Positions 23,975-36,383 of a stretch of 64,000 nucleotides of DNA are shown one piece after another (position 1 is the stretch's first letter; the number at the start of each line of letters is the position of its first letter). The position numbers were made by a program, and so were the translations under genes. Under the pieces are notes generated by a model, which saw nothing but the letters and a program-made list of their open reading frames with translations, did no database searches and was not told the origin of the DNA. The DNA comes from an uncultured Acetatifactor sp. (GTDB lineage: Bacteria; Bacillota; Clostridia; Lachnospirales; Lachnospiraceae). The stretch lies in contig CAKRTS010000001.1 of the NCBI GenBank assembly GCA_934402315.1, positions 186,001 to 250,000 on the forward strand. The letters are read 5' to 3'.

Positions 23975-24094
23975 ACTGCTTTCATTCTCCCTTATTATAA
24001 TCTGCCCCTCTTCAATGAGCGCATTATTTTATATTATTGCATAATATACACCCAAACGCAAGCAAATTCTCCTCTTTACCGGAGTCCCCGAACT

Positions 24095-24123
24095 CACACC
24101 CCGAAACGGTGCGGCATATATTA
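24095..24123 (+). promoter_or_regulatory. Candidate mother-cell sigma promoter of the cotJ operon
   Basis: CATATATTA at 24115-24123 fits the SigK -10 pattern CATANNNTA and partly the SigE -10. A CACA at 24095-24098 lies 16 bp upstream, as in SigK -35 elements (mACm). It lies 36 bp before the cotJA start. In Bacillus subtilis the cotJ operon is transcribed in the mother cell under SigE, so the context fits, but SigE versus SigK cannot be decided by eye. Confidence 0.45.
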
Positions 24124-24159
24124 CTATCAAACAATGAGCAACGAAAGGACTGTAATCAA

Positions 24160-24330
24160 ATGCAGGACTATAAGTTTGAGAGTAATATTGACAGATTTCC
24201 CATCGCTATGTCCTATGTGCCCTGGCAGAAATTTGACAAGATGTATGACGATCTTGAAAAGGCCTACAACATCGGCACCGTTTTCCCGGAACTGAACAAA
24301 CCTTTCACCGGAAGGAGATGTGTATCATGA
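24160..24330 (+). CDS. cotJA: Spore coat-associated protein CotJA
   Basis: A 56-residue protein, MQDYKFESN..., matching the small CotJA family, which is part of the spore coat and depends on the cotJ operon. The conserved IAMSYVPWQ motif is present. The start at 24160 follows AAAGGA. An in-frame ATG at 24037 would add 41 residues not seen in the family. The stop overlaps the cotJB start. Confidence 0.92.
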   Translation: MQDYKFESNIDRFPIAMSYVPWQKFDKMYDDLEKAYNIGTVFPELNKPFTGRRCVS

Positions 24331-24581
24331 ACCAGAAAGAACAGCTTCTGAAGGATATCGGTATTGTCAGCTTTGTGGTGGTCGAGCTCGGGCTTTACCT
24401 CGACACGCATCCCAACGACCGCAATGCGCTGGAATACTTCAACCATTACAGCCGGATCAGGAACCAGATGACGCGGGAGTTTTCCATGAAATACTACCCT
24501 CTGACCATGGATATGGCGGAAGGCGGCAGAGACTGGAGATGGGGCGCTGCTCCCCTGCCCTGGGAAGGAGGATGTGAATAA
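24327..24581 (+). CDS. cotJB: Spore coat protein CotJB
   Basis: An 84-residue coat protein with the CotJB core FVVVELGLYLDTHPND and the C-terminal WRWGAAPLPWEG. ATG 24327 overlaps the cotJA stop (ATGA) and follows GGAGA. It is directly followed by cotJC, whose ATG begins one base after the TAA. CotJB is needed for assembly of the CotJ proteins in the inner coat of Bacillus. Confidence 0.93.
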   Translation: MNQKEQLLKDIGIVSFVVVELGLYLDTHPNDRNALEYFNHYSRIRNQMTREFSMKYYPLTMDMAEGGRDWRWGAAPLPWEGGCE

Positions 24582-24806
24582 ATGTGGAATTATGAAAAGA
24601 GATTACAGTTTCCCGTAAACATCAAGGAGCCCAACGCCAAGCTGGCGCAGGTCATCATGAGCCAGTACGGCGGCCCTGACGGCGAGATGGGTGCCAGCAT
24701 GCGCTACCTCTCCCAGCGGTACGCCACCCCCTACCGCGAGGTTGCGGGGCTGCTGACGGATATCGGTACAGAAGCCTCTGAAATGTTCCGCTCAGGAGCT
24801 TTTTAA
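24582..24806 (+). pseudogene. cotJC: cotJC, 5' part, split by an intervening element
   Basis: Residues 1-64 match the start of CotJC, a manganese-catalase-like spore coat protein (MWNYEKRLQFPVNIK...LLTDIGTE). The frame then leaves cotJC at the GGTACAGA core (24765-24772) and ends after ten foreign residues. The missing part resumes at 30623. Exact joining at the core gives ...LTDIG-TEELAHLEM..., a 218-residue protein. In the split form the metal-ligand Glu65 and His68 are absent, so this 74-residue product should be inactive. It is listed as pseudogene because it is broken in this DNA state. It may be reversibly interrupted rather than decayed. Confidence 0.93.
24765..24787. other. Left attachment site of the cotJC element
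   Basis: The core GGTACAGA at 24765-24772 is followed inside the element by AGCCTCTGAAATGTT (24773-24787). This 15-mer matches the inverse complement of the element's other end (30602-30616) at 12-13 of 15 positions. The left flank is cotJC codons 56-62. Confidence 0.82.
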
Positions 24807-25406
24807 TACGGCTTTGATCGCTCCCTGCGCATGAATGCGGACAATGCTGTTTGTATCATTCTCCGCCATATCATCCAATTTTTTCAAATATGGTAACACA
24901 AGCTCCGGCTTTCGTTTTCCGATTACTCTGAATATTTCCGGCGCCTCTATCCGAACCCTTTCATTCTCATCCTCAAGCAATTTTTCAAATACAGGCAGAC
25001 AATTCCTATATGCAGTCGGTGTATTGGTTGAAATATTTTCAGCTGCCCATATAAAGCTCAATCTCACGTCAGGGCTGTCATCATTGCCCAGAAAAAGTAA
25101 TTGTTCCATATAGGGCAGAACAAGTTCATAATCCGCCCTGCCGATCCGCCCCAACGCATTAGCGGCACGCTCTCTCAGCAAGTCATTTTCTGCTGTAAGA
25201 AATCTTGCAATGTCCTCTGTGTATGCTGCAATTTCCTGCGGATACAACAACCCCATTTCTCCAAGCAGCCACATTGCCTTGGCTGTTATTTTAGGGGATT
25301 GCCTTTTAAGCAGTGAGGCGACATACGGTATATTTTCTTTCCATTTTGTTTTATCTTTTGTAAGCTGGCCGAGTCCGCGATATAATTTATCATCCGCTTT
25401 ATTCAT
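24792..25406 (-). CDS. HEAT-repeat protein
   Basis: A 204-residue alpha-helical protein of about five HEAT-type repeats (patterns such as RERAANALGRIG and VRIEAPEIFRVIG), with no membrane segment. HEAT repeats bind proteins or nucleic acid. The partner is unknown. It is last of three genes transcribed away from padR, 1 bp after the DUF998-like gene, and its ribosome site is AGGGAG. Its 3' end overlaps the end of the truncated cotJC frame on the other strand. Confidence 0.8.
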   Translation of the reverse strand: MNKADDKLYRGLGQLTKDKTKWKENIPYVASLLKRQSPKITAKAMWLLGEMGLLYPQEIAAYTEDIARFLTAENDLLRERAANALGRIGRADYELVLPYMEQLLFLGNDDSPDVRLSFIWAAENISTNTPTAYRNCLPVFEKLLEDENERVRIEAPEIFRVIGKRKPELVLPYLKKLDDMAENDTNSIVRIHAQGAIKAVLKSS

Positions 25407-25407
25407 C

Positions 25408-26052
25408 CTATATCTCCCTAAATAATGATTTAACCGCCTTGTAAATAAAGGAGATATACATGCAGAATAAGGTCATTCGTTCCCATAATCCTTCATACTT
25501 TAAAATAGTACTTTGAAATTGATCCTTATCTCCCATAACAAAACAGGCGAAGAAAAAAAGCGCTAAAACATATGAGCTTATACTGACAATGCCCTCAACC
25601 GTGTCATTTTGCCGAAACGATACAATCCCATTTAGCAGCGGGAAAAGCAGTAACGCCATAAAACCGCTTGCAGCGCCTGCCCCATGTATCTTTGAGGCTG
25701 TCGTAACGATGTCTTTGCTCTCGTTTACGCTAAAAACCCCAGAAATCAATCCTGCTCCAACAGCAAAAATACCAATCGAAAGCAATATTAAAACAGATAA
25801 GACAGGAAACGCTGCTCTTGTTTTCACAAAGTATGCAACGGCTGTGAATGCCAAAAAGCCGCCAAGCCACACAAGCCATAAATTATAAACCAGTCGGACC
25901 GGACTTTGCGGACTGCCCAAAGCACTCATGGCCATTATCCTGCCATTATATTCAACATAAAATTGTTCCAATATCCACGGAAGGAGAAACTCACCTATAA
26001 TTGTGAATAACAAAATCATATTAAAGAACCGGTTGTCCGCTATGTTTCTCAT
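25408..26052 (-). CDS. DUF998-like integral membrane protein
   Basis: A 214-residue membrane protein with about six hydrophobic segments. The layout and the KIHGAGAASGF segment before the fourth helix resemble the DUF998 family, whose function is unknown. It is the middle gene of the element's three-gene cargo operon, followed after 1 bp by the HEAT gene, and probably PadR-controlled. Confidence 0.75.
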   Translation of the reverse strand: MRNIADNRFFNMILLFTIIGEFLLPWILEQFYVEYNGRIMAMSALGSPQSPVRLVYNLWLVWLGGFLAFTAVAYFVKTRAAFPVLSVLILLSIGIFAVGAGLISGVFSVNESKDIVTTASKIHGAGAASGFMALLLFPLLNGIVSFRQNDTVEGIVSISSYVLALFFFACFVMGDKDQFQSTILKYEGLWERMTLFCMYISFIYKAVKSLFREI

Positions 26053-26064
26053 TTCATTATGCTC

Positions 26065-26532
26065 CTAATATTTCTCTATACTTCCTTGAAAGTTATGGGC
26101 TTTTTCCAACAACGGTCCTTTTGCGCCCATCGTAAAGGCAATATCGCTGCTGCGAATAGATAGCAACTCCATTCCAGCTTGTAGTTCCAAGACCTCCAAA
26201 GTGCTGGGCGGCAATTTAATCACACCCTTTTTATCAATATAAAGCCATGCATATTTACGCCCTTTATATTGTATAAACTCACCCTCTGAAAGCAAACAAT
26301 CCCTTAATGCCGGACAATCCTCTAAAATATGCTTTAATTTTGAGTTCGACAGTAATGAATATGTAGTAACGCAAAACCCGCCTGTTATTTTGCTTCCTGT
26401 AAAGATAATAACCTTCCCATCTTGTGCTGCATCATACTCCGACAACGCCTGCGGCGGAATGCAGATGGTAAAATCCGGATGTATCACAGAAAACCCAAAT
26501 ACAAATTTTCCGCCCTTATTAAGCTGTGGCAT
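26065..26532 (-). CDS. Conserved protein of unknown function, first gene of PadR-linked operon
   Basis: A 155-residue soluble protein of unknown function. The segment GVIKLPPSTLEVLELQAGME resembles the swapped-hairpin part of AbrB/SpoVT-like proteins, but this is not secure. It starts the minus-strand cargo operon, divergent from padR, and lies 12 bp upstream of the membrane gene. It may sense or process whatever the operon handles. Confidence 0.65.
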   Translation of the reverse strand: MPQLNKGGKFVFGFSVIHPDFTICIPPQALSEYDAAQDGKVIIFTGSKITGGFCVTTYSLLSNSKLKHILEDCPALRDCLLSEGEFIQYKGRKYAWLYIDKKGVIKLPPSTLEVLELQAGMELLSIRSSDIAFTMGAKGPLLEKAHNFQGSIEKY

Positions 26533-26651
26533 AAAAACCTCCCCTTTGCAATTCCATTCTCAATTCAGCTATGATATAATAGTAATGTCCATAAGTACTA
26601 CTTTATATATACACTACTCTGAATATAAAGGAATGTCAAGGAGGAAGATAC
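26533..26651. promoter_or_regulatory. Divergent promoter region between the cargo operon and padR
   Basis: This 119-bp AT-rich gap drives padR to the right and the three-gene cargo to the left. A TATAAT at 26575-26580 is a likely plus-strand -10. Several short AGTA/TACT half sites around 26590-26625 could be PadR operators. The padR ribosome site AAGGAGG ends the region. Confidence 0.5.
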
Positions 26652-27176
26652 ATGTTATCAAAACCCGCTACTATGCTTTTAGGTCTTATTTCTGAAAAGC
26701 CACTGAATGCGTATGAGATAATAAAGCAGTTAAACTATATGAATGTAAAATGGTGGTTTAATATTTCTGATTCGACCGTTTATTCCACACTGAAAACCCT
26801 CGAAAAAAAGGGCTACCTATCAGGTACGGCCGAGAAAGTCGGAAATATGCCTGACCGTACCGTATATAGTCTTTCCGACAAAGGAAAGGACGAGTTTATT
26901 GCTACACTAAAGGCATCCATTTTACAGTTCAATTATGATACAAACATCTTTTCCATTGCCGCATTTTTCCTGAGTACCTTTACACCTGAAGAGCGTCAGA
27001 GGCTCTTACAGGAACGCCTTGCTGTCCTGCAAAAATATCATGCAGGAATCGCAAAGCAGGTCAATCCCTTATGGGAAAAGGAAGTTCCGGCTATTCATTC
27101 CGCAAATGTAAAGCGAATGATTGATTTGGTAGAGGCAGAAATAACCGGCACAAAACGCTTGCTTGCTCTGCCTTAG
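26652..27176 (+). CDS. PadR family transcriptional regulator
   Basis: A 174-residue regulator. The N-terminal winged helix has the PadR pattern LGLISEKPLNAYEIIKQL, then STVYSTLKTLEKKGYL and DRTVYSLSDKGKDEF. A C-terminal dimerisation helix follows, near the PadR-s2 length. PadR proteins usually repress adjacent genes and respond to small aromatics, drugs or stress. It is divergent from the DUF998/HEAT operon, which it probably controls. AAGGAGG precedes the start. Confidence 0.92.
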   Translation: MLSKPATMLLGLISEKPLNAYEIIKQLNYMNVKWWFNISDSTVYSTLKTLEKKGYLSGTAEKVGNMPDRTVYSLSDKGKDEFIATLKASILQFNYDTNIFSIAAFFLSTFTPEERQRLLQERLAVLQKYHAGIAKQVNPLWEKEVPAIHSANVKRMIDLVEAEITGTKRLLALP

Positions 27177-27191
27177 ACGGCAGAGCAAGCA

Positions 27192-27227
27192 AGCCCCTGA
27201 AACATTCCGTTCAGAGGCTTCTTTTTT
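27192..27227 (+). terminator. padR terminator overlapping the recombinase 3' end
   Basis: AGCCCCTGAA (27192-27201) pairs with TTCAGAGGCT (27210-27219), followed by TTCTTTTTTC. The hairpin covers the last codons of the convergent recombinase gene, whose stop is at 27211-27213. Confidence 0.75.
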
Positions 27228-28815
27228 CAGCCGTGTAGCTCCACCTTGCAGGAAGAAATTTCAAATATACATCAATGTTGTTCTTATCCATAACCACTAT
27301 TCTATCTAAAATGTGTTTATAGAACTCATCCTCGTACTCCACGCCGCTGACAATCTCTTTGATTGCTTCGTCAATCTCTTTTAGGAGCTGCTGTTGCCTG
27401 TGATCCATCGTCTGCTGCTTATCAATGCTGCCGATTACGGATTGCAGCTCCGCAATTTCAACGTCACATTTTAACCGTGCCGCCGAAAACTCCTCTTTTG
27501 TTATATTGCCGTCCATATAAATGTCAATCAGCTTCGCACGCTTATCCTCAACCGTTTCCATCCGGGCCTGCAGTTTTTTAACGTCTGTGCCCGTCATATC
27601 CATATCAAGAACGGACTGAGTAACGGAAATCAGATTGCCTGTAATTTTGTCTCTATTGTACTTAAGACCCTTTGTCACAAGAGACATAATGTAGACCAAA
27701 TCTTCATTGCGGATAGACAAGCCCGCACAACCGGCCTGTTTTCCCGCCTTGTCGATATGCAGGCTGCCATACCTTGCGGCTTCGTTGCAGCGCCACGCCT
27801 TATAGCAGCTTCCGTCCTTCCGGGTCTTGAACCTTGCCACATAGCTGGAGCCGCAACATCCGCATTTGATCTTACCGGAGAACAGATAGCGGTTAGAGTG
27901 CTTTGCCTTGCCCTCCTGCGAAAGCGACTTTGCATCTAAAATACGATTTGCTTCCTCAAACAATTCACGGGTTATAATCGGCTCGTGATGATCCCTGATG
28001 ATAACAAACTCCTCCTGACCCCGGTTGTATTTTTTTTCGTGGGATAGGAAATCCGGTGTATAGGTCTTTTTCTGCACTAAGTCACCGCAGTATTTCTCAT
28101 TTCGTATCACCCGCAGAATGACAGTATTGCTCCACTCTTTTACTCTCATGGGAATGATACCTTCCTCCCGAAGCTCTCTGGCGATAACGTGCGTCCCCTT
28201 TCCCTCATCGACAAACTTATGGAAGATACGGCGTACAACCTTTGCCCCCTCCTCATTGACCGTCATTTTCCCATCCTCAACGTCATAGCCCAACATACTT
28301 CTGCCGAACACAACGCCTTGTTCCATCCGGCGTTTCTGTCCCCACTTCACACGCTCAGAAGTCTTCCGGCTTTCTTCCTGTGCAATGGAGGACATAATCG
28401 CCAGACGCAGCTCGGCGTCACCGTCCAAGGTATTAATATTGTCATTCATAAAGATAACGCCGATACCGTACTTCCTGAGCTCACGGGTATAATAGATACT
28501 GTCAAGGGTGTTTCTCGCAAAACGGGAAATCTCCTTCGTAATAATCAGATCAAATTCGCCGTTCCTTGCACACGCGATCATGCGCTGAAACTCCTTGCGC
28601 TTCTTCGTGTTCGTGCCGGAAATGCCTTCATCGGCAAAAATCCCGTAAAGCTCCCAATCGGGATTGCGTTCAATGTATTGTCTGAAATACCGCTGTTGGC
28701 TCTCGAACGAATTCGCCTGGTCTTCATCATCCGTGGATACGCGGCAATAGGCAGCTACTTTTCTCTTTACAGCTATAGCTTTCTGCTCCTGATTTAAGCG
28801 CTCATATCGATTCAT
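27211..28815 (-). CDS. Large serine recombinase (site-specific integrase/excisionase)
   Basis: A 534-residue large serine recombinase, the likely mover of the cotJC element. The resolvase domain has AAYCRVSTDDEDQ with catalytic Ser27 and the arginine motif ISRFARNTLDS. The Recombinase domain follows (about 170-290), then a zinc ribbon with CGCCGSSY...C...C and a C-terminal coiled coil from about residue 400. The architecture matches SpoIVCA, TnpX and phiC31-type enzymes, which join attL and attR in a precise, orientation-fixed way. GGGAG precedes the start. A small ORF lies directly upstream. Confidence 0.95.
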   Translation of the reverse strand: MNRYERLNQEQKAIAVKRKVAAYCRVSTDDEDQANSFESQQRYFRQYIERNPDWELYGIFADEGISGTNTKKRKEFQRMIACARNGEFDLIITKEISRFARNTLDSIYYTRELRKYGIGVIFMNDNINTLDGDAELRLAIMSSIAQEESRKTSERVKWGQKRRMEQGVVFGRSMLGYDVEDGKMTVNEEGAKVVRRIFHKFVDEGKGTHVIARELREEGIIPMRVKEWSNTVILRVIRNEKYCGDLVQKKTYTPDFLSHEKKYNRGQEEFVIIRDHHEPIITRELFEEANRILDAKSLSQEGKAKHSNRYLFSGKIKCGCCGSSYVARFKTRKDGSCYKAWRCNEAARYGSLHIDKAGKQAGCAGLSIRNEDLVYIMSLVTKGLKYNRDKITGNLISVTQSVLDMDMTGTDVKKLQARMETVEDKRAKLIDIYMDGNITKEEFSAARLKCDVEIAELQSVIGSIDKQQTMDHRQQQLLKEIDEAIKEIVSGVEYEDEFYKHILDRIVVMDKNNIDVYLKFLPARWSYTAEKRSL

Positions 28816-28846
28816 GGCTATGCTCCCTTTTCCATAATGGCTATGT

Positions 28847-28876
28847 AAAAACGCCAGACGTTATGCCCGGCGTTCT
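28847..28876 (-). terminator. Possible attenuator hairpin before the recombinase gene
   Basis: On the minus strand AACGCC (plus 28869-28874) pairs with GGCGTT (plus 28850-28855), followed by TTTTAC. It lies between the small ORF and the recombinase start, so it could limit read-through into the recombinase. The 6-bp stem makes this weak. Confidence 0.35.
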
Positions 28877-29085
28877 CTTTTCTGATTGGAACTATATTGT
28901 TTTTCAAGCTCGGACAAACAGCGTTCACACTGGGAATGTGTCAGCAGCTTTCGCTGTTCTAAAGAAAGAAGGATCGACTTTTGAAGATTCACGAGGAAGT
29001 CTGTGTGTTCCTCTTCGTTTAATTCCGTGACATGGTCGCCAACATAAGCAAATTCTCTGTGCAACAGCCGCAACACCTCCCTCAT
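28861..29085 (-). CDS. Small protein upstream of the recombinase
   Basis: A soluble, charged, helical protein of up to 74 residues with a CERC motif. I do not recognise a named family. The start is uncertain: ATG 29085 lacks a spaced ribosome site, while GGGAGG just inside the frame would serve a TTG at 29064, giving a 67-residue protein. Its position directly before a large serine recombinase fits a recombination directionality factor, as used by the Clostridioides difficile skin element and SPbeta. This role is inferred only from position and size. Confidence 0.65.
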   Translation of the reverse strand: MREVLRLLHREFAYVGDHVTELNEEEHTDFLVNLQKSILLSLEQRKLLTHSQCERCLSELEKQYSSNQKRERRA

Positions 29086-29129
29086 TTTCAGGATATGAGC
29101 GATTGCTTGTACGGTAGACCTTATTCATT

Positions 29130-30425
29130 TCAGATGCAAAATGCTGCATAGAGCGGAACAATCTTTTTCTTATCCTCCCGTCCAAAATTTTTGGCAGAGA
29201 GCTTAATCGCATAGTCCGGCTTATAGGTGTCCATATAGACCTTTAGACTCTTGGCTCTGGTGTTGTCGGCGGATTTAACCTCAATCGGAATGAGCTGACC
29301 GTCACGCTGAATAATAAAATCGATTTCCGCTCCGCGCTCGGACTCCCAGTAGTAGGTATGGTAGCCATTAATAGACAGCTGCACATTGACATAGTTTTCA
29401 GCCATACCGCCCTTAAAGTCATTGATTTCTTCGACCATATAGAGTATATCGTTGGCGGCTAAGTCTTTCTTTGCACAAAGCAATCCTAAATCCGAAACAT
29501 ATATTTTGAACGCATCTATATGCCGGTAGTTCTCCAAAGGCTTTTTAATCTGCTCAACCTTATAAACCTGTGACACAATACCGGATAAGCAGAGCCACTC
29601 AATTGCATTTTCAAACTCAGAAGCCCGTCCCCCCTTCTTAATCAGCTTATATTGGAAACGGGTATTCTTCTTTGAAAGTTGAACGGTAATGTTATCATAG
29701 GCAAGCCTGGTCTTCTTGATTTCATTCAGATTATTGTACTTGCTCATATCGTTGAGATAGCTTGCAAGTATCGTATCCTGCGTATGACGGACAAGGATAT
29801 AATCTTTCGTCTGAGTGAACTGCATCACGCATTCGGGCATACCTCCAACAACAAGGTACTGACGGTAAAGCTGCATTGCTGCATCGTGCAGGGCGGACGG
29901 CATAGGTGTGTCTGTATTAAAACAGCTCTTTATCTGCTCTACTAAATCATCCTCGCCAAAAGCCAGCATAAATTCTTCCATATCCATAGGATACAGCGTT
30001 TTCATATCGACCTTCCCGACAGGAAAAGAGAATTTCGCCCTGTTGACAGCAACACCGAGCAGGCTGCCTGCAACAATGATGTGATAATCCGGAGCATCTT
30101 CACAAAAATATTTAAGCGAGGTCAATGCCCTCTCACAGAGCTGCACCTCATCAAATACTATCAGCGTTTTTTCCCGGACAATCGTTTGCCCTGCAATATG
30201 GGTCAAAATCGGTATCAGATAATCGGGGCTGATATTTTCCTCAAAGGTTTCATTCAGTTTTGGATTTGTTTCAAAATTAAAATATGCGACATTGTCATAA
30301 TGTGTGCGGCCGAACTCCAGAATGGAATAAGTCTTTCCAACCTGTCTTGCGCCCTGTAAAATCAACGGTTTACGGTGTTCGTTTTCTTTCCACGCTTCCA
30401 AAAAGCCCATGATTTTTCTATACAT
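29130..30425 (-). CDS. AAA ATPase with DUF4143 domain
   Basis: A 431-residue ATPase. The N-terminal AAA_14 domain has Walker A GARQVGKT near residue 25 and Walker B LIVFDEVQLCE, followed by the GSLLG sensor region. The C-terminal DUF4143 domain ends with a nuclease-like segment GAEIDFIIQRDGQLIPIEVKS, which resembles a PD-(D/E)XK core. Function in this family is poorly known. It is the first gene at the right end of the element, with its own promoter and GGGAGG ribosome site. Confidence 0.85.
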   Translation of the reverse strand: MYRKIMGFLEAWKENEHRKPLILQGARQVGKTYSILEFGRTHYDNVAYFNFETNPKLNETFEENISPDYLIPILTHIAGQTIVREKTLIVFDEVQLCERALTSLKYFCEDAPDYHIIVAGSLLGVAVNRAKFSFPVGKVDMKTLYPMDMEEFMLAFGEDDLVEQIKSCFNTDTPMPSALHDAAMQLYRQYLVVGGMPECVMQFTQTKDYILVRHTQDTILASYLNDMSKYNNLNEIKKTRLAYDNITVQLSKKNTRFQYKLIKKGGRASEFENAIEWLCLSGIVSQVYKVEQIKKPLENYRHIDAFKIYVSDLGLLCAKKDLAANDILYMVEEINDFKGGMAENYVNVQLSINGYHTYYWESERGAEIDFIIQRDGQLIPIEVKSADNTRAKSLKVYMDTYKPDYAIKLSAKNFGREDKKKIVPLYAAFCI

Positions 30426-30455
30426 ATGTGTGCCTCCCTACAAGGTACTAAACAT

Positions 30456-30484
30456 AGTATATTTGATATTCATGTAAAAATCAA
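30456..30484 (-). promoter_or_regulatory. SigA-type promoter of the DUF4143 ATPase gene
   Basis: On the minus strand TTGATT (plus 30479-30484) and TATACT (plus 30456-30461) are separated by 17 bp, close to a housekeeping promoter. It lies 31 bp upstream of the ATPase start, within the element's right end. Confidence 0.65.
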
Positions 30485-30601
30485 TGAATTTTATTAGATT
30501 TTTTACACAAATCAACACAATTATTTTATTAAAACTCTCACAACTCGACACGAAGTTTGCTTTTTTTTAAGTTCCTACCATTTTTTTAACTCAATCGCCG
30601 C

Positions 30602-30630
30602 AACATTTCCGATGCTTCTCTGGGTACAGA
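30602..30630. other. Right attachment site of the cotJC element
   Basis: AACATTTCCGATGCT (30602-30616) is the element-side arm and GGTACAGA (30623-30630) is the shared core, followed directly by cotJC codons EELAHLEM. Joined to the left end, the two arms form an imperfect 15-bp inverted repeat around a 14-bp centre that contains the core. Confidence 0.82.
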
Positions 30631-31096
30631 GGAACTGGCGCACCTTGAAATGGTAGCGGCTATTGTACACCAGCTGACCAGAAATCTTTCCATGGAAGAA
30701 ATTGAAAAGAGCGGCTTCGCGCCCTATTATACCGACCATACAATCGGCATCTGGCCGCAGGCGGCGGGAGGTGTACCCTTCAATGCCTGTGAATTCCAGT
30801 CAAAGGGTGACATCATTACCGATCTGCACGAAGATATGGCAGCAGAGCAAAAGGCGCGTTCCACTTATGACAACATCCTGCGCCTTATAAAAGATCCCGA
30901 TGTCTGCGCACCGATCAAGTTCCTGAGAGAACGTGAAATCGTCCATTTCCAGCGTTTCGGTGAAGCGCTGCGCATCACTCAGGATAAACTGGATTCCAAG
31001 AACTTCTACGCATTTAACCCTGGCTTTGACATGTGCCAGAACTGTGACGATGCGCCGCAGACCCGCGGTGGGAATTCCGGTTGCTGCAATAATTAA
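30623..31096 (+). pseudogene. cotJC: cotJC, 3' part, beyond the intervening element
   Basis: From the core onward the frame reads GTEELAHLEMVAAIVHQL, continuing CotJC to its stop at 31094-31096 (155 residues after T63). It contains the ferritin-like metal site: Glu65 and His68 by comparison with manganese catalases, the AAEQKAR glutamate, and REIVHFQRF. A Cys-rich tail (CQNCDD...CCNN) ends the protein. There is no start codon or ribosome site at its head, so it can be expressed only after excision. Reconstructed length is 218 residues. Confidence 0.93.
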
Positions 31097-35268: not shown

Positions 35269-35784
35269 TTATACCTTTGTCGTGCTTCCGAAACCACCGT
35301 TACGGATGCCGTCCGCATCATCATCCACCGTGATTCCGTATTCCAGAAAGATTCCCTGCGCAAAGCCCGTTCCCTGCGGAACATCCACGGTCTTTCCCTC
35401 GTTGGAAGCGTTCGTCATCTTGATAAAAATATGTCCTTCGTTGTCCGAATAAAAATAGTCACTGTCGATGATACCGACAGTGTTGTTCATCTGGAGACGG
35501 TACTTGAAACCAAGACCGCTTCTCGGATAAATCTTCAACACCCAGTCCTCCTCCATTTTCACCCGGATTCCTGTCGGAATCTTGATCGTCGCCGCAGGCG
35601 GCAGTGAAAACGAAAACGGCGCGTGGAAATCATATCCGGCACTGCCGCGTGTCGCACGCCTCGGCAGCACAAGCGACTCGTACATATCCCGAATGTCTTC
35701 TTCTGTATACTGCGGAAATTCTTCCCGCATCGCATTCATAAAGTTTTCAGGGCTGACCTTGAAAAACTGTGCTATCTTCTTCAT
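35269..35784 (-). CDS. dut: dUTPase (deoxyuridine 5'-triphosphate nucleotidohydrolase)
   Basis: A 171-residue trimeric-type dUTPase that hydrolyses dUTP to dUMP and keeps uracil out of DNA. Motifs 1 (RGSAGYDFHA), 2 (PRSGLGFK), 3 (NNTVGIIDSDYF), 4 (AQGIFLEY) and 5 (GGFGSTT) are all recognisable. An N-terminal helical extension of about 40 residues precedes motif 1. It lies next to nrdG-nrdD, a nucleotide-metabolism cluster. Confidence 0.87.
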   Translation of the reverse strand: MKKIAQFFKVSPENFMNAMREEFPQYTEEDIRDMYESLVLPRRATRGSAGYDFHAPFSFSLPPAATIKIPTGIRVKMEEDWVLKIYPRSGLGFKYRLQMNNTVGIIDSDYFYSDNEGHIFIKMTNASNEGKTVDVPQGTGFAQGIFLEYGITVDDDADGIRNGGFGSTTKV

Positions 35785-35822: not shown

Positions 35823-36383
35823 TCAGTCGCAGCAGCCGCAGATGTTCTCCGGCTTCTTTGTCATCTCATAGGAATCGGCATAATCCCCGCAGTGCAGCAC
35901 GGGAATGGTCGGGTCCGGCTGTGCAAGTGTCCTCTGTACATCGATCACCCGCTGGTTCGCACTGCCCTTCCAGAGCAGCTTTACGTCCTTCTCCTGCTCA
36001 TGAAACTCGCCGTCCACAAGGACATCCACATATTTCATCATCGGGTAATATAAAATATCCTCCCACGAATCCCCGGTGTACAGCCAGATTGTTTTATTCG
36101 GGTATTTACCCTTGATCTCCTCCATCAGCTCCCGCACGCCCAGCCGGTTCGCCGGGTGCAGGGGATCGCCGCCCGAGAAGGTAATTCCTGAAATATAGCT
36201 CTTATCCAGCTGTTCAAAAATTTCTGTCTTTGCATCCTCGTCAAACGCAAGTCCGCCGTCCGGATCCCATGTGATGGGATTCTGGCAGTTCTTACAACAG
36301 TGATTGCAGCCGGCGACCCATAGCACAACCCGCAGTCCGTCACCGTTCCGCATATCATCCTTTGTTATATTATGGTATCTCAT
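35823..36383 (-). CDS. nrdG: Anaerobic ribonucleotide reductase activating protein NrdG
   Basis: A 186-residue radical-SAM activase that puts the glycyl radical on NrdD. The CX3CX2C cluster motif is read in GCNHCCKNCQNP near residue 26, with an extra Cys inside, and TFSGGDPL follows. A C-terminal CGCC tail is present. It starts 3 bp after nrdD and is surely cotranscribed. Confidence 0.95.
   Translation of the reverse strand: MRYHNITKDDMRNGDGLRVVLWVAGCNHCCKNCQNPITWDPDGGLAFDEDAKTEIFEQLDKSYISGITFSGGDPLHPANRLGVRELMEEIKGKYPNKTIWLYTGDSWEDILYYPMMKYVDVLVDGEFHEQEKDVKLLWKGSANQRVIDVQRTLAQPDPTIPVLHCGDYADSYEMTKKPENICGCCD

Follow-up and report, generated by a model that had tools for sequence, protein, structure and literature searches.

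A coat catalase gene, cotJC, split by a serine-recombinase element in an uncultured Acetatifactor: recurrent splits in Clostridia and a predicted excision in the mother cell

How can a spore-coat gene be used when almost six kilobases of other DNA lie inside it? The question is raised by cotJC in a 64,000-nucleotide stretch of an uncultured Acetatifactor sp. of the Lachnospiraceae (contig CAKRTS010000001.1, positions 186,001 to 250,000), here called the window, where the gene is in two parts, cut at codon 62-64 by a 5,858-bp element. To our knowledge, the known rearrangements of sporulation genes are a handful of single cases. The cotJC split is exact, and it recurs in related genomes. The element is predicted, and on balance judged likely, to excise when the mother cell sporulates, which would make cotJC one reading frame again.

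The split gene belongs to a sporulation operon. The 5' part of cotJC (24582..24772, + strand, codons 1 to 62-64) directly follows cotJB (24318..24581, +; PF12652, E 4.2e-27), and upstream lies an open reading frame (ORF) that by its position is likely cotJA, the first gene of the operon (24160..24330, +; ATG within the ORF 24037-24330). In B. subtilis, CotJC is a spore-coat protein (PMC11222575). The 3' part (30623..31096, +) aligns to Mn catalases in the PDB, and its reading frame is open up to its end. Both parts match Pfam Mn_catalase (PF05067), the 5' part with E 9.4e-18 and the 3' part with E 4.1e-17. The 8-bp sequence GGTACAGA is present at 24765 and again at 30623, a spacing of 5858 bp, and the two copies are identical (8/8). 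Joining the flanks at GGTACAGA in silico gives a stop-free CotJC of 218 aa. When this protein is aligned to the Mn catalase Alr3090 (PDB 6j42/4r42), all five ligand positions, which we take to be E35, E65, H68, E136, and H169, are present. Four of the five are encoded by the 3' part, and the 74-aa product of the unjoined 5' ORF (24582-24806), which reads on into the element, has E35 as its sole ligand. The repeat and the Pfam halves thus bear out the original prediction that a cotJC start at 24582-24772 continues from 30623 with the same 8 bp at both edges, and the stop-free join and the Alr3090 alignment do the same for its claim of a restored 218-residue frame with metal ligands. Its placement of the insertion at codon 64 agrees with the 5' halves of relatives, which end near that codon, but the core itself begins at codon 62. 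A restored frame is expected for any site-specific insertion in a gene and is therefore, taken alone, no argument for developmental control.

The element boundaries can be checked separately from the reading frame. The left site, attL (24740..24795), comprises a cotJC half-site, the core (24765-24772), and an element arm that runs onward from the core as AGCCTCTGAAATGTTCC. The right site, attR (30590..30660), comprises the element arm AACATTTCCGATGCTTCTCTG, the core (30623-30630), and the second cotJC half-site. Put together, the element ends (AACATTTCCGATGCTTCTCTGG followed by GTACAGAAGCCTCTGAAATGTT) form a 44-bp dyad with 17 of 22 positions paired, and when window DNA was joined at random 5000 times, only 2 joins gave a dyad as good. 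The joined ends resemble the attP of serine integrases, which is about 50 bp long and has inverted repeats on either side of the crossover. Since this attP-like dyad is independent of the reading frame, it provides a second line of evidence for where the element begins and ends.

Within these ends, a large serine recombinase of 534 aa is encoded at 27211..28815 on the minus strand, with the domains PF00239, PF07508, and PF13408, and is predicted to carry out integration and excision. Its sequence matches in the PDB are serine recombinases, integrases, and resolvases. The three domains and the 5858-bp spacing confirm that a 5.86-kb serine-recombinase element splits the gene, as had been claimed. 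A 74-aa protein (28861..29085, -), conserved near the recombinase in relatives, is a candidate recombination directionality factor. In 66 of the 80 loci described below, a relative of this protein is encoded no more than 3 kb from the recombinase and on its strand, and the core of these proteins is conserved. A helical hairpin is predicted for it (predicted local distance difference test score, pLDDT, 83.5), and searches gave no family, sequence, or usable PDB match.

Relatives of the recombinase were collected by scanning one genome per species, and the best 80 of 124, which are 60-83% identical, were kept. Insertions at codon 64 are common among them, as 70 of the 80 loci hold a cotJC 5' half that ends at about this codon. 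In 64 loci, the recombinase is convergent with the 5' half and at most 350 bp from it, unlike in the window, where 2.4 kb containing other genes lie between the two. The cotJC 3' half falls inside the fetched flank in 22 of the 80 loci. No cotJC piece is present at six (L023, L024, L029, L030, L043, and L080), although the genomes of L023 and L024 carry a cotJC 5' piece elsewhere; cotJC matches were found in all 34 recombinase-bearing genomes searched. An intact gene at the corresponding place in a relative, proposed earlier as a check, is seen at the near-syntenic locus L081 (genome G050), where an uninterrupted cotJC is 90% identical over 204 residues. It adjoins relatives of the window genes 35269-35784 and 35823-36383, together with a gene that we take to be of the GerA type. 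In the window, the counterparts of these three neighbors are oriented opposite to cotJC and separated from it by 3 to 5 kb, an interval that contains three other genes. At L065, L068, L076, and L077, the element is reversed, and the recombinase is next to the cotJC 3' half rather than the 5' half.

A join of both cotJC halves was possible at 20 distinct loci including the window, with L028 and L082 representing one locus. The core starts at codons 60-63 in 17 of these, and the best join is poor or off in L060, L065, and L066. Only in-frame, stop-free joins were allowed by the script, so these joins locate the core and do not thereby test the frame. In many codon-64 relatives, the joined element arms resemble those of the window; when a shorter arm of 18 is considered, 8 to 14 pairs form in the other codon-64 joins and 13 in the window. 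No join was obtained for the codon-173 halves of L084.

How often cotJC is split was determined in 90 genomes from the family to which Lachnospiraceae bacterium A2 belongs (genome G001, with locus L011). A CotJC match is found in 54 of the 90 genomes and is real in 53, the match in G237 being weak and distant. By hand classification, 20 of the 53 cotJC-bearing genomes have a split copy, cut at codon 64 in eight, at 31 in nine, at 136 in three, and at 173 in one (G082, which has two cuts, is counted twice). Left out of the split count were G236 (contig ends), G062 (frameshift), G237 (weak match), and G080 (3' piece only). A recombinase lies near the cut in 13 of the 18 split genomes fetched (all 20 minus G045 and G071). 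The stretches obtained for the other five, G054, G059, G061, G101, and G235, contain none; in G235, the 3' piece begins at the first base of a contig, which leaves a gap at codons 69-111. Among these 90 genomes, none of 57 spoIVA genes is split (56 are whole and one is partial, with none in complementary pieces), nor is any of 89 recA genes above the cut-off, one of which is divided over two contigs with its second piece coming from a contig's first bases. Across the class, 98 of 148 genomes have a CotJC match, some only to distant paralogues, and complementary cotJC pieces were recognized by hand in at least 21 of the 148, a count that includes G001 and some genomes with gaps between the pieces. 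A larger family sample gave CotJC matches in 125 of 200 genomes.

The cuts near codon 31, near codon 136, and at codon 173 are made by other recombinase lineages. In G019 (L028, L082, and L083), cotJC is in four pieces, 1-69, 61-136, 133-178, and 167-202, which lie in order on one strand of one 34-kb contig, and each of the three gaps between them holds a recombinase. The stretches L082:3647-12629 and L083:7223-12644 contain this four-piece gene together with its three recombinases, which belong to three lineages. At each cut site for which joins were made, the core starts at most 7 codons from a ligand codon. When 59 recombinases are placed in a tree, the number of changes in site label is 4, the minimum, as against 24.1 in shuffles. 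The codon-64 group in this tree is weakly supported (51/40) and carries long-branch warnings, and its members all came from the search with the window recombinase as query. Two genomes of an independent sample, G036 and G083, have codon-64 cuts beside recombinases only 24-26% like the best-matching references. The idea of one recombinase clade per cut site is thus only partly right, and there are more lineages than sites. In the codon-136 and codon-173 elements, other, distinct small ORFs precede the recombinase and are conserved at some of the few loci available; no small ORF was found before the codon-31 recombinase in the few loci examined. The codon-136 recombinases of L091, L092, L028, and L048 follow genes for proteins of about 47-52 aa that resemble one another and would represent a second, apparently unrelated, candidate directionality factor.

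Other arrangements were seen at these genes. In G070 (C1:2098502-2185836), a cotJC copy split at codon 31 has its two parts about 87 kb apart, with a codon-31-type recombinase beside the 5' part, and very large intervening stretches of this kind may therefore occur in cotJC. In L054, L057, L078, L080, L102, and L104, the recombinase of the cotJC element itself is seemingly interrupted or cut near its codon 60, and two other serine recombinases adjoin the cut recombinase in all of these except L054, which makes them elements nested in an element. Such nesting may block restoration of cotJC in Eubacterium sp. 14-2 and Hespellia stercorisuis DSM 15480. At L126, an intact cotJC (L126:1039-1638) is followed 16 kb on by a short cotJC 3'-half remnant beside a preserved attR arm (L126:18065-18160), as if a split copy decays once an intact one exists.

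The anatomy of the window matches that of gene-intervening elements of the skin and SPbeta type. Like cotJC here, sigK in B. subtilis and C. difficile is a sporulation gene split by an element, skin, with a large serine recombinase. The C. difficile skin has CD1234 as its directionality factor, described as a 72-aa protein that depends on sigma-E and SpoIIID (PMC5025042), although its size is given otherwise in PMC10747680. Skin differs in cutting a sigma-factor gene rather than a coat catalase gene, and in the window the small protein sits directly before the recombinase; the skin proteins were compared by description, not by sequence. SPbeta has the same anatomy with respect to spsM, a gene for spore envelope maturation that is restored by precise excision of SPbeta during sporulation of B. 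subtilis (PMC4191935). However, SPbeta is a prophage, whereas the seven ORFs of the window element have no Pfam match to a phage, relaxase, or transfer family, and relatives of the window element are, judging by their record titles, spread over several families of Clostridia. The gin element in gerE of B. cereus illustrates that non-phage elements are able to split sporulation genes (PMC5595907). In yabG, the yin element has a small candidate directionality factor and is called unique by its own paper, which also names vfbin in spoVFB (PMC10747680). Unlike gin, vfbin, and yin, the elements described here cut one gene at four places, belong to more than four recombinase lineages, and occur in many genomes. 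With mobile elements that use large serine integrases they share the attP dyad, the short core, and horizontal spread, but the window element has no relaxase or transfer family in its seven ORFs. No report of an element intervening in cotJC was found in the literature, in a search outside which subscription papers mostly lay. The nearest mention is the phi027 prophage of C. difficile R20291, which adjoins the CotJC homologue CDR20291_1465; this homologue is described as a 678-bp ORF downstream of attR and not as a split gene (PMC11222575).

Excision of the window element in the mother cell is what we infer from the analogy to skin, SPbeta, gin, and yin and from a sigma-E-like block that the element family carries before its small gene. 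The recombinase would join attL to attR, and the 74-aa protein would serve as the directionality factor that the recombinase needs. In the element family, this protein would be made from a sigma-E-type promoter, which would place excision in the mother cell. The mother-cell chromosome is lost anyway, and the spore would keep the element. Before excision, only the 74-aa CotJC fragment with one of the five ligands could be made. The elements likely descended from mobile ones that used the conserved, ligand-coding DNA of cotJC as their attachment site. A wider and more tentative proposal, plausible but a shade on the doubtful side, is that cotJC is a developmental DNA-splicing hub of Clostridia, with at least four sites near ligand codons, more than four recombinase lineages, and, for genes in three or four pieces, two or three sigma-E-timed excisions per mother cell before the catalase coat is built.

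The block in question reads TTATATG-N15-CATACATT upstream of the small gene in many relatives. It was scored against a sigma-E consensus of B. subtilis, the excess being the score above mononucleotide shuffles. In 55 distinct regions upstream of the small gene, the sigma-E excess is 1.47, with 24 of the 55 exceeding shuffles by at least 2; for the same regions, the excess is 0.03 for sigma-A and 0.17 for sigma-G. The positive control was the upstream region of spoIVA in 20 related genomes (L147-L166). This gene is a sigma-E target in C. difficile (PMC5025042). Here, the excess is 1.26 for sigma-E, 0.64 for sigma-K, and -0.15 for sigma-A, and a CATAYA-type -10 (such as CATATATT, CATACATT, or CATATACT) occurs in 13 of the 20 best spoIVA matches. 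The control thus agrees with the small-gene block in the -10 and differs from it in the -35 and the spacing. SpoIIID boxes give a mixed answer: with the C. difficile consensus (PMC5025042), 22 of 24 upstream rows reach the 95th percentile of shuffles, as against just 6 of 24 with a B. subtilis consensus. By eye, several of the spoIVA upstream regions have a C-rich stretch by the sigma-E-like -10 that is seemingly complementary to the ribosome-binding site, a trait also of the element's small gene.

Several results weigh against mother-cell excision. For the window copy, the main weakness of the case is that the block (29086..29143, -), sigma-E-like in relatives, is degenerate, its left part being lost and its best sigma-E score reaching 9 of 14. 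The window small gene could be expressed from the region before the ATPase gene that lies upstream in the same direction; the sigma-A-like match there, TTGATT-17-TATACT, is of a kind found at chance frequency (5 found, 4.4 expected). For the family, the sigma-K excess of the small-gene regions, 0.72, is also above shuffles, and the exact -35 and 15-nt spacing of the block barely exceed shuffles before spoIVA (0.22). The upstream regions of cotJ itself give weak signals (sigma-E 0.41, sigma-K 0.86). A fold search with the small protein matched no known factor, the best E being 1.1. Four of the 20 split genomes (G056, G059, G070, and G072) have an intact cotJC as well, and L043 is a possible exception in which the recombinase is present and the genome's cotJC is intact. 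The recombinase is damaged or shortened in L023, L053, L054, L057, L070, L072, and L078, and the elements of L070 and L072 are just 3.8 kb long. An excised form was also sought. Of 397 genomes, 8 have a match to the attP-like pattern, as do 2 viral contigs; none of these matches was recognized as an excised circle. Four matches (L114, L116, L117, and L119) are attR arms next to a cotJC 3' part or remnant; the only exact one, L113, is on a contig with ATP-synthase-like and other chromosomal-looking genes; and L115, L118, L120, and the two viral matches have neither cotJC nor a recombinase in the stretch examined. The proposal that cotJC is under a developmental switch therefore stands in part: the skin-like anatomy, the conserved small gene, and the sigma-E-like block of the family speak for it, while the degenerate block of the window and horizontal moves within the family speak against it.

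These moves bear on the alternative that an ordinary, or formerly mobile, element found its attB by chance in cotJC and excises rarely and regardless of sporulation, with CotJC dispensable. Recombinase distances do correlate with those of CotJB and the CotJC 5' half over 62 loci (Pearson 0.52, with 0 of 2000 permutations as high). However, vertical inheritance is rejected as the main story because recombinases that are identical or 0.2% apart occur in hosts whose CotJB and CotJC are 30-46% different, which indicates recent horizontal moves and a mobile element family. That part of the family has moved between hosts leaves room for an ordinary mobile element docking in cotJC. Consistent with this, four larger elements (about 10 to 33 kb) have variable cargo, including efflux, ABC, AbiEii, and regulator genes, and one relaxase was found among the matches listed (25 of 71 families) for the 62 of their 80 ORFs that were scanned. 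The degenerate regulatory block of the window fits such an element as well, and cotCB and cotD mutants of C. difficile have lower catalase activity with no significant coat defect (PMC11222575).

Other evidence argues against a merely mobile element. The elements of L004 and L067, about 3 kb long, keep a full recombinase, although the small elements of L070 and L072 do not. The median ratio of nonsynonymous to synonymous substitution rates (dN/dS) of the recombinase is 0.093 (419 pairs), and an inner stop occurs in only 1 of 77 near-complete recombinases, a set from which the shortened ones were left out. For the small gene, the median is 0.207 (891 pairs). The cotJC halves have medians of 0.168 (5' halves; 249 pairs, including some genes with a cut at another codon) and 0.167 (3' halves; just 4 pairs). 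None of the cotJC 3' halves examined is decayed: 32 sequences, intact copies and codon-31-cut genes included, have no inner stop, and the stops seen are terminal or, in L070, within element sequence. Intact halves are weak evidence on their own, since some insertions are recent and the halves may partly reflect this youth, a reservation that also counts against programmed excision. In addition, the sigma-E-like block before the small gene is on par with that of spoIVA in related genomes, and cotJC splits are in strong excess over splits of spoIVA and recA. We consider a chance docking of a mobile element unlikely, though well short of negligible.

A second alternative concerns the block alone, which might be a leader hairpin that hides the ribosome-binding site and provides translational control, rather than a promoter. 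For many rows, single-sequence folding predicts a helix of CCTCGTT and AACGAGG that covers the ribosome-binding site, and 84% of the pairs in this 7-pair helix are standard, above six slid registers. On the other hand, RNAalifold gives no consensus structure, the invariant columns are mostly in the would-be loop, and covariation is within that of shuffles (120 of 500 as high), which makes this reading improbable. Rfam gave merely sub-threshold microRNA matches for the leader. A short hairpin (AGAAAG...CTTTCT) is present inside the conserved leader block of the small gene in L041, L046, and L079. Finally, it is very improbable that the window element is stuck and its cotJC dead, through a mistimed small protein or an inactive recombinase, as the degenerate block and the end of the ATPase gene just upstream of the small gene might suggest. 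Against this reading stand a recombinase with its three Pfam domains complete, a full-length small ORF, a core repeat identical at 8/8, an intact dyad, and a cotJC 3' half that is open to its end.

The remaining genes of the window element are cargo. From the attL side, they encode a HEAT-repeat protein (24792..25406, -; PF13646, E 2e-14), a DUF998 protein (25408..26052, -; PF06197, E 2.5e-9), a 155-aa protein without a Pfam or NCBIfam match at E 0.01 (26065..26532, -), and a PadR-type regulator (26652..27176, +; PF03551, E 2.6e-13). The ATPase upstream of the small gene (29130..30425, -) is a 431-aa protein with AAA_14 and DUF4143 domains (PF13173 and PF13635).

If excision during sporulation is confirmed, more than one-third of the cotJC-bearing genomes sampled in one family carry a split copy of a single coat gene, and the splicing of cotJC DNA in development may be widespread and overlooked. 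Programmed DNA excision would then be a common layer of spore-coat control in anaerobes. The elements would also supply naturally occurring combinations of recombinase, small protein, and att sites for studying how excision in terminal cells evolves and how directionality factors function. They would further make it testable whether mobile DNA prefers genes of the mother cell since excision there takes place in a cell without descendants.

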